Source: Pseudomonas sp. J452
GTDB taxonomy: Bacteria; Pseudomonadota; Gammaproteobacteria; Pseudomonadales; Pseudomonadaceae
Assembly (NCBI RefSeq): GCF_024666525.1
Contig: NZ_CP088294.1
Coordinates: 3,348,001-3,412,000, forward strand
Direction of reading: 5' to 3'
Length of the DNA stretch: 64,000 bases
Under the pieces are notes generated by a model that saw only the letters and a program-made list of their open reading frames with translations, did no database searches and was not told the origin of the DNA. The position numbers and the translations under genes are program-made. Of the stretch, positions 21,884 through 41,099 are shown in pieces (within the stretch, counting starts at the first letter, position 1; each line of letters begins with the position of its first letter).

Positions 21884-22855
21884 ATGGCCGTACAAGACCT
21901 GCTGTCACAGGACGAAATCGATGCGCTGCTGCATGGCGTCGACGATGGCCTGGTCGAGACCGAAGACGAAGCTGAGCCCGGCAGCGTCAAAAGCTATGAC
22001 CTGACCAGCCAGGACCGCATCGTCCGTGGGCGCATGCCGACCCTGGAGATGATCAACGAACGTTTCGCCCGCTACACCCGCATCAGCATGTTCAACCTGC
22101 TGCGCCGCTCGGCCGATGTGGCCGTGGGTGGCGTGCAGGTGATGAAGTTCGGCGAGTACGTGCACTCGTTGTACGTGCCGACCAGCCTCAACCTGGTGAA
22201 GATGAAGCCGCTGCGCGGCACCGGTCTGTTCATTCTCGACGCCAAGCTGGTGTTCAAGCTGGTCGACAACTTTTTCGGCGGCGATGGCCGTCACGCCAAG
22301 ATCGAAGGCCGCGAATTCACCCCGACCGAGCTGCGGGTGGTGCGCATGGTGCTGGATCAGGCCTTTGTCGACATGAAGGAAGCCTGGCACGCAGTGATGG
22401 ACGTTAACTTCGAGTACATCAACTCGGAAGTGAACCCGGCACTGGCCAACATCGTCAGCCCCAGCGAAGTGGTCGTCGTGTCGACCTTCCACATCGAGCT
22501 GGACGGCGGCGGCGGCGACCTGCACATCACCATGCCCTATTCGATGATCGAGCCGATCCGCGAGATGCTCGACGCCGGCTTCCAGTCCGATGTCGACGAT
22601 CAGGATGAACGCTGGATCAAGGCCCTGCGCGAGGACATCCTCGACGTCAACGTACCGCTGGGCGCTACCCTGGCCCGCCGCGAGCTCAGGCTGCGTGACA
22701 TCCTGCACATGCAGCCGGGCGACGTGATTCCGGTGGAGTTGCCAGAAAGCATCATCATGCGCGCCAACGGCGTGCCGGCGTTCAAGGTCAAGCTGGGTGC
22801 GCACAAGGGCAACCTGGCCATGCAGGTAATCGAACCTATCGAGCGTCTGCGCTAA
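21884..22855 (+). CDS. fliM: Flagellar motor switch protein FliM
   Basis: FliM (323 residues) forms the C-ring wall. The N-terminal CheY-P-binding peptide is present (LLSQDEIDALLHG, residues 6-18). The CheC-like middle domain follows at about 45-230 with the GGXG-like turn (ELDGGGGDLHI) and the C-terminal SpoA domain at about 245-320. The N-terminal peptide resembles repeats found in CheA of this window (see findings). The next gene fliN is 62 nt away. Confidence 0.97.
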   Translation: MAVQDLLSQDEIDALLHGVDDGLVETEDEAEPGSVKSYDLTSQDRIVRGRMPTLEMINERFARYTRISMFNLLRRSADVAVGGVQVMKFGEYVHSLYVPTSLNLVKMKPLRGTGLFILDAKLVFKLVDNFFGGDGRHAKIEGREFTPTELRVVRMVLDQAFVDMKEAWHAVMDVNFEYINSEVNPALANIVSPSEVVVVSTFHIELDGGGGDLHITMPYSMIEPIREMLDAGFQSDVDDQDERWIKALREDILDVNVPLGATLARRELRLRDILHMQPGDVIPVELPESIIMRANGVPAFKVKLGAHKGNLAMQVIEPIERLR

Positions 22856-33107: not shown

Positions 33108-33494
33108 TTGGACAAGAACATGAAAATCCTCATCGTTGATGACTTCTCGACGATGCGACGGATCATCAAGAACCTCTTGCGTGATTTGGGATTTACCAAT
33201 ACCGCCGAGGCGGATGACGGTGTGACCGCATTGCCGATGCTGCAGAGTGGCAGCTTCGACTTTCTGGTGACCGACTGGAACATGCCCGGTATGACCGGCA
33301 TCGACCTGTTGCGCGCGGTGCGTGCCGACGATCGCCTGAAAACCCTGCCGGTGCTGATGGTGACGGCCGAGGCCAAGCGTGACCAGATCATCGAGGCCGC
33401 GCAGGCTGGGGTGAATGGCTACGTGGTCAAGCCGTTCACGGCTCAGGTGCTGAAGGAGAAGATCGAAAAGATCTTCGAGCGGGTTAATGGCTGA
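33108..33494 (+). CDS. cheY: Chemotaxis response regulator CheY
   Basis: CheY (128 residues as called) binds the motor switch when phosphorylated. Acidic pocket residues are in [11 protein letters not shown], the phospho-acceptor in [11 protein letters not shown], and the conserved Thr and Lys in MVTAEAK and VVKPFT. The start is uncertain. GGAGG at 33098-33102 is 5 nt from a TTG at 33108 but 17 nt from the ATG at 33120, which most annotations use (MKILIVDD). I report the TTG on RBS spacing. cheZ starts 19 nt after the stop. Confidence 0.95.
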
Positions 33495-33513: not shown

Positions 33514-34299
33514 ATGGCACACGATGACTCCCTGGGCGAGCTTGAATCGACCCTGAAGCTGCATGCAACGCAACTCGTCGACAGCCTGGAAAAAGGCCGT
33601 TTTGGCGAAGCCGTACAACTGATTCACGAACTCAACCAGACCCGCGACCGCGGTCTGTACCAGGAAGTTGGCCGGCTGACGCGCGAGTTGCACAACGCCA
33701 TCGTCAATTTCCAGATTGATCCCGGTAATCCCCACGCCCAGGAAATCTCGCAGATCAGCGACGCTACCGAGCGTCTGTCCTACGTGGTGCAGATGACCGA
33801 GAAAGCGGCCAATCGCACCATGGACCTGGTCGAACAGAGCGCGCCGCTGGTCAATGATCTGGGTGACGAGGCGCAGAGCCTCAGCGCCGACTGGGGCAAG
33901 TTCATGCGCCGCGAGCTGGGCGCCGAGGCCTTCCGTGAGCTGGCCAAACGTATCGAACTGTTCCTCGCCCACAGCGAGCGCGACAGTCATAAGCTCTCCG
34001 GTTACCTGAACGACATTTTGCTGGCGCAGGACTATCAGGACCTGACCGGCCAGGTGATCAAGCGCGTGACGCAACTGGTCACCGAGGTTGAAGGAAATCT
34101 GCTGAAGCTGGTGTTGATGGCCAGCCATGTCGATCGGTTTGCTGGTATCCAGCATGACCACGAGGCGCTACGCGCCGAGCAAGAACAACAAAAAGAGCCT
34201 TCCCGGGGTGAAGGTCCGCAGATTCATGCCGATAAGCGTGAGGACGTCGCATCCAATCAGGACGATGTCGATGATCTGCTGTCCAGCCTGGGATTTTAA
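33514..34299 (+). CDS. cheZ: CheY phosphatase CheZ
   Basis: CheZ (261 residues) dephosphorylates CheY. The catalytic region is LLAQDYQDLTGQVI, with the Asp and Gln of the DxxxQ active site, in a long helical hairpin. The extreme C-terminus is NQDDVDDLLSSLGF, the known CheY-docking helix. The start at 33514 has GAGG at 33505-33508; an alternative ATG at 33487 overlaps the cheY stop. Confidence 0.95.
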   Translation: MAHDDSLGELESTLKLHATQLVDSLEKGRFGEAVQLIHELNQTRDRGLYQEVGRLTRELHNAIVNFQIDPGNPHAQEISQISDATERLSYVVQMTEKAANRTMDLVEQSAPLVNDLGDEAQSLSADWGKFMRRELGAEAFRELAKRIELFLAHSERDSHKLSGYLNDILLAQDYQDLTGQVIKRVTQLVTEVEGNLLKLVLMASHVDRFAGIQHDHEALRAEQEQQKEPSRGEGPQIHADKREDVASNQDDVDDLLSSLGF

Positions 34300-34328: not shown

Positions 34329-36533
34329 ATGAGCTTCGACGCCGATGAAGAAATCCTCCAGGACTTCCTGGTAGAGGCCGGCGAAATTCTTGAGTTGCTG
34401 TCCGAACAACTGGTCGAGCTGGAAAGTCGACCGGATGATACGGACCTGCTCAATGCTATTTTCCGCGGTTTTCACACGGTCAAAGGGGGCGCGGGTTTCC
34501 TCCAGCTGAACGAGCTGGTGGAGTGCTGCCATATCGCGGAAAACGTCTTCGACATCCTGCGCAAGGGTGAACGGCGAGTCACTGCCGAGCTGATGGACGT
34601 GGTGCTGCAGGCTCTGGATGCGGTCAACGAGATGTTCAGCCAGGTGCGCGAGCGTTCAGCTGTCACTCCGGCTTCGCCCGAGTTGCTGGCGGCGCTGGCG
34701 CGCTTGGCCGACCCGGAAAGCGCGGATGAAGTGGCCGAGCCCGAAGCGGAACTGGAAGCCGAAGAGGCGCCCGCCGAGGTTGCCTCCGGTGACATCACCG
34801 ATAGCGAGTTCGAGCAGTTGCTCGAAGCGATCAGTGAGCCGGATGAGCAGGGCGCGGCTCCCGCGGCAGCTTCCGGTGATGAAATCACCGATGACGAATT
34901 CGAATCGTTGCTCGATCAGCTACACGGCAAGGGCAAGTTCGCCGAGCCAGTCGTAGCTGCGCCAACTGCGGCCGCGGCTGCCCCGGCCAAGGCCGGTGAC
35001 GAGATCACCGATGACGAGTTCGAGGCGCTGCTTGACCAGTTGCATGGCAAGGGCAAGTTTGTAGCCGCTGAGGAAGAGCCGGCTCCCGTTGTTGCTAAAG
35101 CGCCGGCTAGCGCGGCAGCGGGCGACGACATCACCGATGACGAGTTCGAAGCACTGCTCGATCAGTTGCACGGCAAAGGCAAGTTCGACGAAACCGCCGT
35201 GCTGCCGGCTGCCGCTCCTGTAGCGGCGGTGAAAGCCGCTCCGCCGGCCAAACCTGCTGTCGCCAAGCCGGCCGCCAAACCTGCGGCTAAGGCCGAGCCG
35301 GTCAAGGCTGCCGCGCCACCACCTCCAGCCGCAGCAGCAGACAAAGCTCCAGCAGCAGCCAGCGAAGCCGAGACCACGGTACGGGTGGATACCGCGCGCC
35401 TGGACGAGATCATGAACATGGTCGGTGAGCTGGTGCTGGTGCGTAACCGTCTGGTGCGCCTGGGCCTGAACAGCGGCGACGAAGCCATGTCCAAGGCCGT
35501 TTCCAACCTCGATGTGGTGACTGCGGATCTGCAGACCTCGGTCATGAAGACCCGCATGCAGCCGATCAAGAAGGTCTTCGGCCGTTTCCCGCGGCTGGTT
35601 CGCGATCTGGCGCGCCAACTGAAGAAAGAGATCAACCTGGAACTGGTCGGTGAAGAAACCGACCTCGACAAGAACCTGGTCGAGGCGCTGGCCGATCCAC
35701 TGGTGCACTTGGTACGCAACGCAGTCGACCACGGTATCGAAATGCCGGAAGAGCGCGAGGCCTCGGGCAAGGCACGTGGTGGTCGAGTGGTGCTGTCGGC
35801 CGAGCAGGAGGGCGACCACATCCTGCTGTCGATCTCCGACGACGGCAAAGGCATGGATCCGGAAATCCTGCGTGCCAAGGCCGTGGAAAAGGGCCTGATG
35901 GACAAGGATGCGGCCGATCGCCTGAGCGAGACCGAGTGCTTCAATCTGATCTTCGCCCCGGGCTTCTCGACCAAAACCGAGATTTCCGACGTGTCCGGGC
36001 GTGGCGTTGGCATGGACGTGGTGAAAACCAAGATTTCCCAGCTCAACGGCATCATCAACGTGCACTCGGTCAAGGACCAGGGTTCGAAGATCATCATCAA
36101 GGTGCCGCTGACCCTGGCGATCATGCCGACCCTGATGGTCATGCTCGGCAATCAGGCTTTTGCCTTCCCGCTGGTCAACGTCAACGAGATCTTCCACCTC
36201 GACCTGTCACGCACCAACGTGGTGGACGGTCAGGAAGTGGTGATCGTGCGCGACAAGGCGTTGCCGCTGTTCTATCTCAAGCGCTGGCTGGTGCGTGGCG
36301 CCAGCTACGAAGAGCAGCGTGAAGGTCATGTGGTGATTCTTACCGTTGGCAGCCAGCGCATCGGCTTCGTGGTCGATCAACTGGTCGGTCAGGAGGAAGT
36401 GGTGATCAAACCACTGGGCAAGATGTTGCAGGGCACTCCGGGCATGTCCGGCGCGACCATTACCGGCGACGGGCGCATAGCCCTGATCCTCGACGTGCCG
36501 AGTATGCTCAAGCGCTACGCACGTCGCATCTGA
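34329..36533 (+). CDS. cheA: Chemotaxis histidine kinase CheA with repeated linker motif
   Basis: CheA (734 residues) is the kinase of the polar chemoreceptor array. P1 (Hpt) holds the phospho-acceptor His49 in RGFHTVKGGAGF. P3 dimerisation begins near 349 (TTVRVDTARLDEIMN), P4 ATPase near 410-590 (N-box NAVDHGIEMPEERE) and P5 CheW-like near 595-734. No globular P2 is obvious. Instead the linker (about 130-345) is Ala/Pro/Glu rich and carries four related peptides: ITDSEFEQLLEAI (156-168) and three copies of ITDDEFExLLDQLHGKGKF starting at residues 186, 226 and 268. They resemble CheY-binding peptides. The ATG at 34329 follows GGAG. Confidence 0.97.
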   Translation: MSFDADEEILQDFLVEAGEILELLSEQLVELESRPDDTDLLNAIFRGFHTVKGGAGFLQLNELVECCHIAENVFDILRKGERRVTAELMDVVLQALDAVNEMFSQVRERSAVTPASPELLAALARLADPESADEVAEPEAELEAEEAPAEVASGDITDSEFEQLLEAISEPDEQGAAPAAASGDEITDDEFESLLDQLHGKGKFAEPVVAAPTAAAAAPAKAGDEITDDEFEALLDQLHGKGKFVAAEEEPAPVVAKAPASAAAGDDITDDEFEALLDQLHGKGKFDETAVLPAAAPVAAVKAAPPAKPAVAKPAAKPAAKAEPVKAAAPPPPAAAADKAPAAASEAETTVRVDTARLDEIMNMVGELVLVRNRLVRLGLNSGDEAMSKAVSNLDVVTADLQTSVMKTRMQPIKKVFGRFPRLVRDLARQLKKEINLELVGEETDLDKNLVEALADPLVHLVRNAVDHGIEMPEEREASGKARGGRVVLSAEQEGDHILLSISDDGKGMDPEILRAKAVEKGLMDKDAADRLSETECFNLIFAPGFSTKTEISDVSGRGVGMDVVKTKISQLNGIINVHSVKDQGSKIIIKVPLTLAIMPTLMVMLGNQAFAFPLVNVNEIFHLDLSRTNVVDGQEVVIVRDKALPLFYLKRWLVRGASYEEQREGHVVILTVGSQRIGFVVDQLVGQEEVVIKPLGKMLQGTPGMSGATITGDGRIALILDVPSMLKRYARRI
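34875..35187 (+). repeat. In-frame tandem repeats within cheA
   Basis: Three copies of a conserved 66-nt unit begin at 34875, 34995 and 35121 (periods 120 and 126 nt, both multiples of 3), separated by variable Ala/Pro-coding spacers. A more diverged fourth copy lies upstream at about 34788-34835. The encoded peptide is far better conserved than the spacers. Confidence 0.9.
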
Positions 36534-39334: not shown

Positions 39335-39386
39335 GGCGACAATCAGTTCTCGGTAAGGTAATGGCCGTGCCGGGAGGACGATGAAG

Positions 39387-40175
39387 ATGAAAGTCTGGGC
39401 AGTAGCCAATCAAAAAGGTGGGGTCGGCAAGACCACCACATCCATCGCTCTGGCCGGCCTGCTGGCCGATGCCGGCAAGCGCGTGGTGATAGTCGACCTC
39501 GATCCGCATGGTTCGATGACCAGCTATTTCGGGCATGACCCGGACAGCCTGGAGCACAGCTGTTTCGACCTGTTCCAGCACCAGGGCGCTGTGCCTGAAG
39601 GCTTGCCGGCGCGCCTGTTGCTGCCGACCAGCAATGAGCGTATTTCACTGCTGCCCTCCAGTACCGCGCTGGCCACGCTCGAGCGCCAATCGCCGGGGCA
39701 GAGTGGCCTGGGTCTGGTGATTGCCAAGAGCCTGGCGCAGTTATGGAACCAGTTCGACCACGCGATCATCGACAGCCCGCCGTTGCTCGGCGTGCTGATG
39801 GTCAACGCGCTGGCAGCCAGCCAGCAGCTGGTGATTCCGGTACAGACCGAATTCCTCGCGGTAAAAGGCCTGGAGCGCATGGTCAGTACCCTGGCCATGA
39901 TCAACCGCTCGCGCAAGCAGGCCTTGCCCTACACCATCGTGCCGACTCTGTTCGACCGTCGTACCCAGGCCTCGCTGAATACCCTGCGGGTGCTGCGCAA
40001 TTCCTATCCGGAGCATCTGTGGCAGGCTTACGTGCCGGTTGATACGCGCTTGCGCGACGCCAGCCGTGCCGGGCAGACCCCTTCACAGTTCGATGGCAAC
40101 AGCCGTGGCGTGATTGCCTACCGGGCCTTGCTCAAGCATCTGCTGGCGGCATCACCAGCAACCCAGGTAGCCTGA
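39387..40175 (+). CDS. parC: ParA-like ATPase ParC for chemotaxis array placement
   Basis: This 262-residue ParA-family ATPase has Walker A QKGGVGKTTT (Lys10-Gly-Gly-Val-Gly-Lys15) and an Asp-rich Walker A' loop (VDLDPHGSMTSYF). In Vibrio, ParC with ParP brings the chemoreceptor array to the pole; the same parC-parP-cheW order is seen here, so that role is likely. Two ATGs are possible (39381 and 39387). GGAGG at 39373-39377 is 9 nt from 39387 and only 3 nt from 39381, which favours 39387. Confidence 0.88.
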   Translation: MKVWAVANQKGGVGKTTTSIALAGLLADAGKRVVIVDLDPHGSMTSYFGHDPDSLEHSCFDLFQHQGAVPEGLPARLLLPTSNERISLLPSSTALATLERQSPGQSGLGLVIAKSLAQLWNQFDHAIIDSPPLLGVLMVNALAASQQLVIPVQTEFLAVKGLERMVSTLAMINRSRKQALPYTIVPTLFDRRTQASLNTLRVLRNSYPEHLWQAYVPVDTRLRDASRAGQTPSQFDGNSRGVIAYRALLKHLLAASPATQVA

Positions 40176-40231: not shown

Positions 40232-40262
40232 GTTGTAGAACCCTTTTTTGTGGAAGTCCGTC

Positions 40263-41099
40263 ATGAGTCGTACTGTTGCCACCGCCACCCGCCCTCAGCA
40301 GGCCTTGCAGTCCTATCTGGATGCCTTGCTGCAGGAAGCGGCTGCCGAGCTGGAACAGAGCATCACTCTGGACGAATTCGAAGCGGCGGTTATCGAGGAA
40401 CAGGTGCGTGATGCGCGCCTGACGCCGCATCCAGTGCTTGCCGCTGCCATCGAGCGGCCGCTGGCGCTGGCGGAAGCGCGGCCCCTGGTCCTGCCTACGA
40501 TCGAGTTGCCGCCTACCGTCAGCGTGCCGGTAATTGAACCTGTTGCGCCGGTGGTCGAGGCGCGGGTCGAGCAGCAGGAACTGCAACCTCCGGTCGAGCC
40601 GGCCAAGTTCAGCGTCGATGGCCGGCCAAGCTGGGCCGAGGACTCTTTCGAGTGCCTGCTGTTCGATGTCGCCGGCCTCACCCTGGCTGTGCCGCTGGTG
40701 TGCCTGGGGACCATCTACCCGCTGGCCAATGCCGAGCTGACTCCCTTGTTCGGCCAGCCCGACTGGTTTCTCGGCATATTGCCCAGCCAGGCTGGCAATC
40801 TGAAGGTGCTGGATACGGCGCGCTGGGTCATGCCCGAACGCTACCGTGACGACTTCCGCGATGGCCTGCAGTACGTGATTTCGGTCGAAGGCTATGAGTG
40901 GGGGTTGGCGGTGCATCAGGTCAGCCGTTCCATCCGCCTGGTGCCGGACGAAATCAAGTGGCGCAGCCACCGCAGCCAGCGACCCTGGTTGGCCGGTACG
41001 GTGATCGAACACATGTGCGCGCTGCTGGATGTGTCCGCCCTGGCCGAGTTGATCGCCAGTGGTGCGACGCGCAAGCAGGCAGCCACCAAGCGCCATTAA
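40263..41099 (+). CDS. parP: ParP-like CheW-domain protein
   Basis: This 278-residue protein has a C-terminal CheW-like domain (about 125-270, ECLLFDVAGLTLAVPLVCLG and FLGILPSQAGNLKVLDTARW), matching ParP, which couples the array to ParC and the pole through an array-integration domain. The N-terminal half is Pro/Glu rich and contains ITLDEFEAAV (34-43), a weak match to the CheA linker repeats. The ATG at 40263 is favoured over the in-frame start at 40248 by its conserved MSRTVATA start. cheW follows after a small hairpin. Confidence 0.85.
   Translation: MSRTVATATRPQQALQSYLDALLQEAAAELEQSITLDEFEAAVIEEQVRDARLTPHPVLAAAIERPLALAEARPLVLPTIELPPTVSVPVIEPVAPVVEARVEQQELQPPVEPAKFSVDGRPSWAEDSFECLLFDVAGLTLAVPLVCLGTIYPLANAELTPLFGQPDWFLGILPSQAGNLKVLDTARWVMPERYRDDFRDGLQYVISVEGYEWGLAVHQVSRSIRLVPDEIKWRSHRSQRPWLAGTVIEHMCALLDVSALAELIASGATRKQAATKRH

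Follow-up and report, generated by a model that had tools for sequence, protein, structure and literature searches.

The CheA histidine kinase encoded within a 64,000-nucleotide stretch of DNA from Pseudomonas sp. J452 (contig NZ_CP088294.1, positions 3,348,001 to 3,412,000; hereafter the window) carries, in the linker between its P1 and P3 domains, an array of four short peptides resembling the N-terminal CheY-binding peptide of FliM. This four-unit array is real and lies far above chance. On the sequence comparisons presented here, we give a probability of roughly 0.58 to the reading that the peptides form a CheY-docking array doing the job of the P2 domain, perhaps shared with ParP; such sharing is likely in Vibrio-type systems. 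CheY binding, the face of CheY involved and the replacement of P2 are what we infer from these comparisons.

The linker between P1 and P3

Pfam recognised Hpt, H-kinase_dim, HATPase_c and CheW domains, in that order, in the window protein, the domain set that identifies a CheA histidine kinase. The genome stands close to Aquipseudomonas guryensis (96% identity in CheA). The gene and its parts are as follows:

34329..36533, plus strand: cheA, 734 amino acids, P1-linker-P3-P4-P5 (translation and Pfam)
34350..34628, plus strand: P1 (Hpt), residues 8-100 (Pfam PF01627)
34734..35381, plus strand: disordered linker found where a folded P2 would lie, residues 136-351 (AlphaFold2 pLDDT mostly below 50; no P2 or CheY-binding Pfam match)
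34794..34832, plus strand: motif copy 1, ITDSEFEQLLEAI, residues 156-168, short, without the LHGKG tail (translation; predicted helix 159-168)
34884..34940, plus strand: motif copy 2, ITDDEFESLLDQLHGKGKF, residues 186-204 (translation; predicted helix 188-198)
35004..35060, plus strand: motif copy 3, ITDDEFEALLDQLHGKGKF, residues 226-244 (translation; predicted helix 228-238)
35130..35186, plus strand: motif copy 4, ITDDEFEALLDQLHGKGKF, residues 268-286 (translation; predicted helix 270-281)
35373..35552, plus strand: P3 dimerization domain, residues 349-408 (Pfam PF02895)

Translation of cheA (34329-36530) revealed the four FliM-like units, the long ones reading ITDDEFE(S/A)LLDQLHGKGKF, at spacings of 90, 120 and 126 nucleotides along the gene. 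CheA scored 32.8 bits with a 10-column motif profile, whereas no other member of a set of 344 own-genome genes, taken from the window and 20 stretches of 20 kilobases each, exceeded 17.4 bits.

The Pfam models for P2 and the CheY-binding domain (PF09078, PF07194) gave no match to the window CheA at E values up to 1; the available text of PMC10782961 describes the P2 models as insensitive. In the AlphaFold2 model of the window CheA, built from 44 sequences, residues 136-351 mostly scored below 50 in predicted local confidence (pLDDT), while P1 was confident and P3-P5 mostly so. The only helices predicted in the linker (159-168, 188-198, 228-238 and 270-281) coincided with the four units, at low to medium confidence (overall predicted score, pTM, 0.49). 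The CheA linker of Vibrio amylolyticus, modelled from 36 sequences, exhibited three helices, all of them on motif copies, together with a four-residue helix just past the third. A compact folded domain between P1 and P3 was predicted in neither of these two models.

Domains of the P2 type recognised by Pfam were rare across a class sample of 276 genomes (CheY-binding in two, P2 in one), and the three CheAs that contain one all lacked the motif. Conversely, Pfam P2 was absent from all six motif-bearing CheAs scanned (the window and loci L185, L214, L115, L105 and L137). These counts suggest that the motif and P2 may be mutually exclusive, though P2 cases are few and the P2 models are reportedly insensitive. 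A separate observation concerns loci L143, L144 and L146, which encode a second CheA with a compact, conserved P1-P3 segment that Pfam leaves unnamed; its candidacy as a P2-like domain was dropped once its profile, set against those of two true CheY-binding domains, reached a probability of only 16.5%.

An earlier reading of this DNA, made from the sequence only, had placed four FliM-like units at residues 156, 186, 226 and 268, with periods of 120 and 126 nucleotides, in a linker without a recognisable P2. The translation bears out the units, the periods are correct, and the missing Pfam match agrees with the modelled disorder interrupted by four short helices. That reading had also named beforehand a conserved folded P2 as the finding that would speak against it, and AlphaFold2 predicted none.

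Resemblance to FliM, conservation and distribution of the motif

Three further features of the window enter the comparison with known CheY ligands:

21902..21931, plus strand: FliM N-terminal CheY-binding peptide LSQDEIDALL (fliM 21884-22855)
34252..34296, plus strand: CheZ C-terminal tail SNQDDVDDLLSSLGF, a known type of CheY-binding peptide (CheZ Pfam match)
33108..33494, plus strand: cheY, whose product is the proposed motif ligand; searches used the translation from 33120 (Pfam Response_reg; closest solved chains CheY 3to5 and 4hns)

We take chains 3to5 and 4hns to be V. cholerae CheY3. Over a 10-residue core, CheA ITDDEFEALL and FliM LSQDEIDALL stand in a gap-free register. FliM residues L6, Q8, I11, D12, L14 and L15 are described in the available text of PMC3774744 as touching CheY in a V. 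cholerae model and/or an E. coli complex, and in CheA the same six core positions, aligned gap-free, read I, D/E, F, E/D, L and L. The window CheY agrees with 3to5 and 4hns at eleven CheY contact residues taken from the same source, under a numbering inferred from its named mutants. Searched against the 343 non-CheA genes of the own-genome set, the 10-column CheA profile ranked FliM second; a FliM profile placed the CheZ tail 7th or 8th of 344. A phmmer search of the PDB with a 22-residue peptide returned no match. Across 30 genomes, the FliM peptide LSQ[DE]E[IV]DALL was found in 29, the 30th being unmatched by the pattern. Taken together, the profile support appears real for the core and moderate overall.

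Pairwise comparison of the three long copies over 22 codons gave synonymous differences (pS) of 0.62-0.85 and nonsynonymous differences (pN) of 0.02-0.04, a pattern that suggests old copies kept by purifying selection rather than duplicates of recent origin. Mean identity to the window CheA over 43 other CheAs was 0.77 for the long copies (45 residues) and 0.25 for the remaining linker, with 0.73 for P1, 0.75 for P3-P5 and 0.22 for the short first copy, a unit that in these alignments is kept only among close relatives. When sequences were aligned without conditioning on the motif, all 44 carried the F, the second L and the D after it in the copy at residue 226. The F and the second L were likewise invariant in all 219 distinct copies collected by a pattern that allowed F/I/L at the first of these positions and L/I at the second. 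The conservation of the peptide amid variable spacers, proposed in the sequence-only reading, is borne out by the 0.77 against 0.25 mean identity, and its description of the array as FliM-like is supported by the rank of FliM in the 10-column search.

A close CheA (E ≤1e-120) was found in 109 genomes of the class sample, and the linker comparison covers those 109, leaving the other 167 aside. By our criteria 98 of the 109 linkers were intact, and 11 CheAs were set aside before the main count: five in which motif copies were detected (L069, L080, L085, L097 and L130) and six whose cheA open reading frame was cut short (L107, L109, L116, L125, L135 and L147). In two of the latter, L107 and L135, both draft genomes, cheA is split into two open reading frames with the motif in the N-terminal piece, through a frameshift or an assembly error. 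The motif occurred in 97 of the 98 intact linkers, amounting to 230 copies (219 distinct), and the sole exception, L146, has degenerate copies. Two copies were present in 49 linkers, three in 36, one in eight, four in four and none in one, neighbouring copies lying 29-83 residues apart (mean 43). The Pseudomonas/Stutzerimonas loci (n=11; L172-L180, L204 and L210) carried four copies in nine cases and three in two (L179 and L180).

A named set, consisting of the best 80 of 594 candidates, showed that the motif array is not peculiar to Pseudomonas. A strict copy was present in 48 of these 80, among them Vibrio, Photobacterium, Aeromonas, Shewanella, Alteromonas, Marinobacter, Dyella and Acidithiobacillus. 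All 48 carriers are gammaproteobacterial by title, with reservations for Acidithiobacillus, which forms a separate class in some taxonomies, for L186, titled only Proteobacteria, and for L202, labelled a Klebsiella pneumoniae metagenome-assembled genome (MAG). The last of these, probably mis-binned, has a ParC match close to its motif-bearing CheA. The strict motif was absent from the other 32 of the best 80, which comprise Betaproteobacteria, Campylobacterota, Nitrospirae, Bacteroidetes, others and a Marinobacter MAG (L241) that has a different CheA. Four betaproteobacterial CheAs without the motif (L231, L236, L246 and L249) share another short peptide in the linker, built around DW-x-x-L-(H/Y), which may serve docking of a different kind.

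Outside recognisable CheA, the strict motif was found in four of 11,838 open reading frames of at least 90 amino acids from 281 sequences. Two of the four are the N-terminal parts of CheA genes that are split, another is a FliM, and the last is unrelated. The strict form misses the ordinary gammaproteobacterial FliM because FliM has H where the form asks for D/N/E/Q.

ParC, ParP and the partner of the motif

Downstream of cheA, the window contains two genes that bear on the partner of the motif:

39381..40175, plus strand: parC, ParA-like ATPase (NCBIfam ParA-type models only, below their cut-offs; matches in Vibrio loci)
40248..41099, plus strand: parP, with a CheW-like C-terminal domain (CheW-domain match; Vibrio loci matches at 179 and 192 bits; no NCBIfam name)

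The names parC and parP are putative, assigned by gene order. A segment in the ParP N-terminus, ITLDEFEAAV (window 40362-40391, residues 39-48), is the best non-CheA match of the 10-column profile in the sampled genes. We rejected it as a motif common to both proteins, since among the ParP candidates listed only the close relative L040 matches it, and in part. In V. cholerae, according to the available text of PMC5706961, the AIF domain of ParP binds a CheA segment named LID, which is reported only in species with ParC/ParP; PMC7534058, in the portion available, locates LID between P2 and P3 of CheA. The accessible text of PMC12918733 refers to prepublished work on the P. putida orthologs of ParC/ParP and what they do. 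ParP is thus the main rival partner, and the sequence-only reading overlooked it. The LID of Vibrio CheA probably includes motif copies, since the predicted linker helices of the Vibrio amylolyticus protein sit at such copies. In three Vibrionaceae loci (L185, L214 and L195), the third copy is followed by a common extension, GKGPS-x-(E/D)EL(E/D)-x-AT(K/R)P, which may be specific to ParP binding; the L214 model has a four-residue helix just after the third copy.

The comparison with ParC and ParP in the named set covered 52 of the best 80 loci. Of the 48 motif loci, 39 had a ParC match and 34 a ParP match above 100 bits, as counted in the fetched DNA only, where some contigs are short. Acidithiobacillus, two Dyella and Allochromatium palmeri have motif copies and no parC in the fetched flanks, to which that search was confined.

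In the class sample, ten CheA-bearing genomes contained neither detectable ParC nor detectable ParP (G001, G008, G020, G152, G023, G024, G137, G154, G172 and G261). Their best ParC match was 1e-41 or weaker, compared with 3e-58 or stronger in the ParC cluster, and the ParP profile gave them 35 bits or less or no match, the CheW controls scoring 27-29 bits and three ParP controls 229-293 bits. Nine of these ten genomes keep the motif and the tenth, G023, has degenerate copies only; the motif is therefore found beyond the ParC/ParP setting to which LID is reported to be confined. In G154 the copy lies in a split N-terminal open reading frame, while G172 and G261 have another sequence in place of the LHGKG tail. 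A further genome, G161, had no ParC match of the required strength and a ParP match of 96 bits. Loci L081 and L137, one family in which ParC/ParP went undetected, carry a longer repeat, LPE-x-x-DPD-x-(D/E)ITD(D/E)EFE, that keeps the FliM-like core and replaces the LHGKG tail.

Other chemotaxis proteins were also followed across genomes. FliM was present in all 30 genomes searched, including five of the ten without ParC/ParP, and cheY adjoins cheA in nine of those ten, the G137 contig ending first. Among 21 genomes searched, G137 and G261 gave no CheB methylesterase match and kept the motif, and CheB looks less likely than CheY as the partner because of these two. The partners left are CheY, CheW and the receptors, the last of which were not searched for; of these, only CheY would explain the FliM register.

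We propose that the P1-P3 linker would act as a flexible arm with four helical peptides for docking, mimics of the FliM N-terminus, each of which would bind the alpha4-beta5-alpha5 face of CheY. That face also serves FliM and CheZ and overlaps the CheA-binding surface of E. coli CheY. In this way as many as eight CheY molecules could be kept close to the P1 histidine by one CheA dimer, which would speed up phosphotransfer, the job that P2 performs elsewhere.

Several observations weigh against this proposal. The resemblance to FliM appears moderate, consisting of 10 residues in a simple amphipathic helix with I replaced by F and Q by D/E, and CheA offers no clear counterpart to the FliM contacts at positions 3, 4 and 16. 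The top non-CheA gene for the 10-column profile was ParP, and 101 genes outscored the CheZ tail. With a 13-column profile, ten genes outscored FliM (eight with weaker counts), CheA included, and the FliM profile placed CheA 4th of 344 under weak counts but not among the top 8 under strong ones. Moreover, ParP is already a published partner for the Vibrio CheA linker (PMC5706961 and PMC7534058, in their available text). The exclusion of partners rests on genomes estimated to be 91-100% complete and on profiles that possibly miss divergent genes. Indeed, seven genomes (G010, G052, G139, G147, G173, G237 and G243) have a ParC match yet a CheW-level ParP score or none, and for that reason the ParP profile may miss divergent ParPs.

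Among the alternatives, the most serious holds that the peptides are simply the LID, docking the AIF domain of ParP, keeping CheA in the array and tethering the array to the pole with no CheY docking. It draws on the V. cholerae binding data, on the Vibrio amylolyticus helices and on the frequent company of ParC and ParP in the named set; we nevertheless consider it rather unlikely, as it has to accommodate the nine genomes that retain the motif without detectable ParC/ParP and leaves the FliM-like register unexplained. That register is equally without a link to the suggestion that the peptides hold the array together, whether by binding CheW, receptor tips, P5 or another part of CheA or by clustering CheA through many weak contacts. 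Many short helices on a disordered arm would suit such a scaffold, and cheW was found near cheA in 16 of the 21 neighbourhoods listed, but the low to medium confidence of the helices counts against it as well, and we regard it as improbable.

A comparably small chance attaches to the peptides being a FliM decoy that binds CheY-P and retains it at the array, either in competition with the motor or as a supply for CheZ, with no help to phosphotransfer. V. cholerae FliM binds activated CheY3 in pull-down assays (PMC3774744, available text), the motif imitates FliM, and with one to four copies on each chain the sink would be sizeable. On the other side, CheZ is not needed: among the 21 genomes searched, G020 and G152 gave no CheZ match and keep one motif copy each. 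The systematic changes of I to F and of Q to an acidic residue with respect to FliM may furthermore mean a different state preference. It is very improbable, finally, that the motif is a short domain of the SHOCT type unrelated to chemotaxis docking. SHOCT (PF09851) scored 31.4 bits on the window CheA, over a cut-off of 27, and is recorded for most of 120 close homologs among the matches listed; yet in the best stretch only positions 11-26 of its 28 were matched, with the first third unmatched, so that the full domain was not found, and in five motif-bearing CheAs of other genera it fell below the cut-off (19.6 bits) in two and was not found in three. Since SHOCT fires above its cut-off on the motif in the window and in many Pseudomonas CheAs, the resulting database annotation is probably misleading.

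The CheY-docking reading can be extended to a wider picture that we find possible though doubtful: a FliM-mimicking array would have replaced P2, kinase and motor may compete for CheY, the same peptides would be the ParP LID, forming a hub that couples CheY traffic to polar tethering, and copy number (one to four) would tune signalling speed.

Significance and relation to known systems

Berry et al. 2023 (PMC10782961, available text) report that P2 is missing from over half of all CheAs, which have a long unstructured stretch in its place. The accessible main text of that paper contains neither the word 'repeat' nor the word 'FliM' and names no replacement for P2. In the open-licence literature, searched by title and the start of the abstract, such an array was not described, subscription papers and preprints being largely outside that search. 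The array offers a concrete candidate replacement for P2 in a large group to which Pseudomonas, Vibrio, Shewanella and Aeromonas belong, and with it a new reading of the ParP-binding LID. If the proposal is true, kinase and motor would compete for CheY via related peptides. Work that by E. coli analogy calls this stretch of Pseudomonas CheA a 'CheY-binding (P2) domain' would then need rereading; in its available text, a 2025 P. putida study treats CheA as having such a domain (PMC11978298).

The P2/CheY-binding domain (PF09078, PF07194) resembles the CheA array in its position between P1 and P3 and in the proposed docking of CheY, but it is one folded domain, whereas the array consists of several short helical peptides with no predicted fold. 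The LID of Vibrio CheA occupies the same linker, and predicted helices of Vibrio-type linkers sit at motif copies; LID, however, is reported only with ParC/ParP, while the motif also occurs where neither was detected. The CheZ C-terminal peptide, QDDVDDLL, follows the same register as the CheA motif (acid-hydrophobic-acid-x-LL) but is present as a single copy at the C-terminus and is not singled out by the CheA profile. The FliM peptide matches the CheA motif in a gap-free register, with the core hydrophobic and acidic contact positions in common. It differs in being a single N-terminal copy, whereas CheA has one to four copies, all internal, in which F takes the place of I and D/E that of Q and which usually carry an extra DxLHGKG tail.

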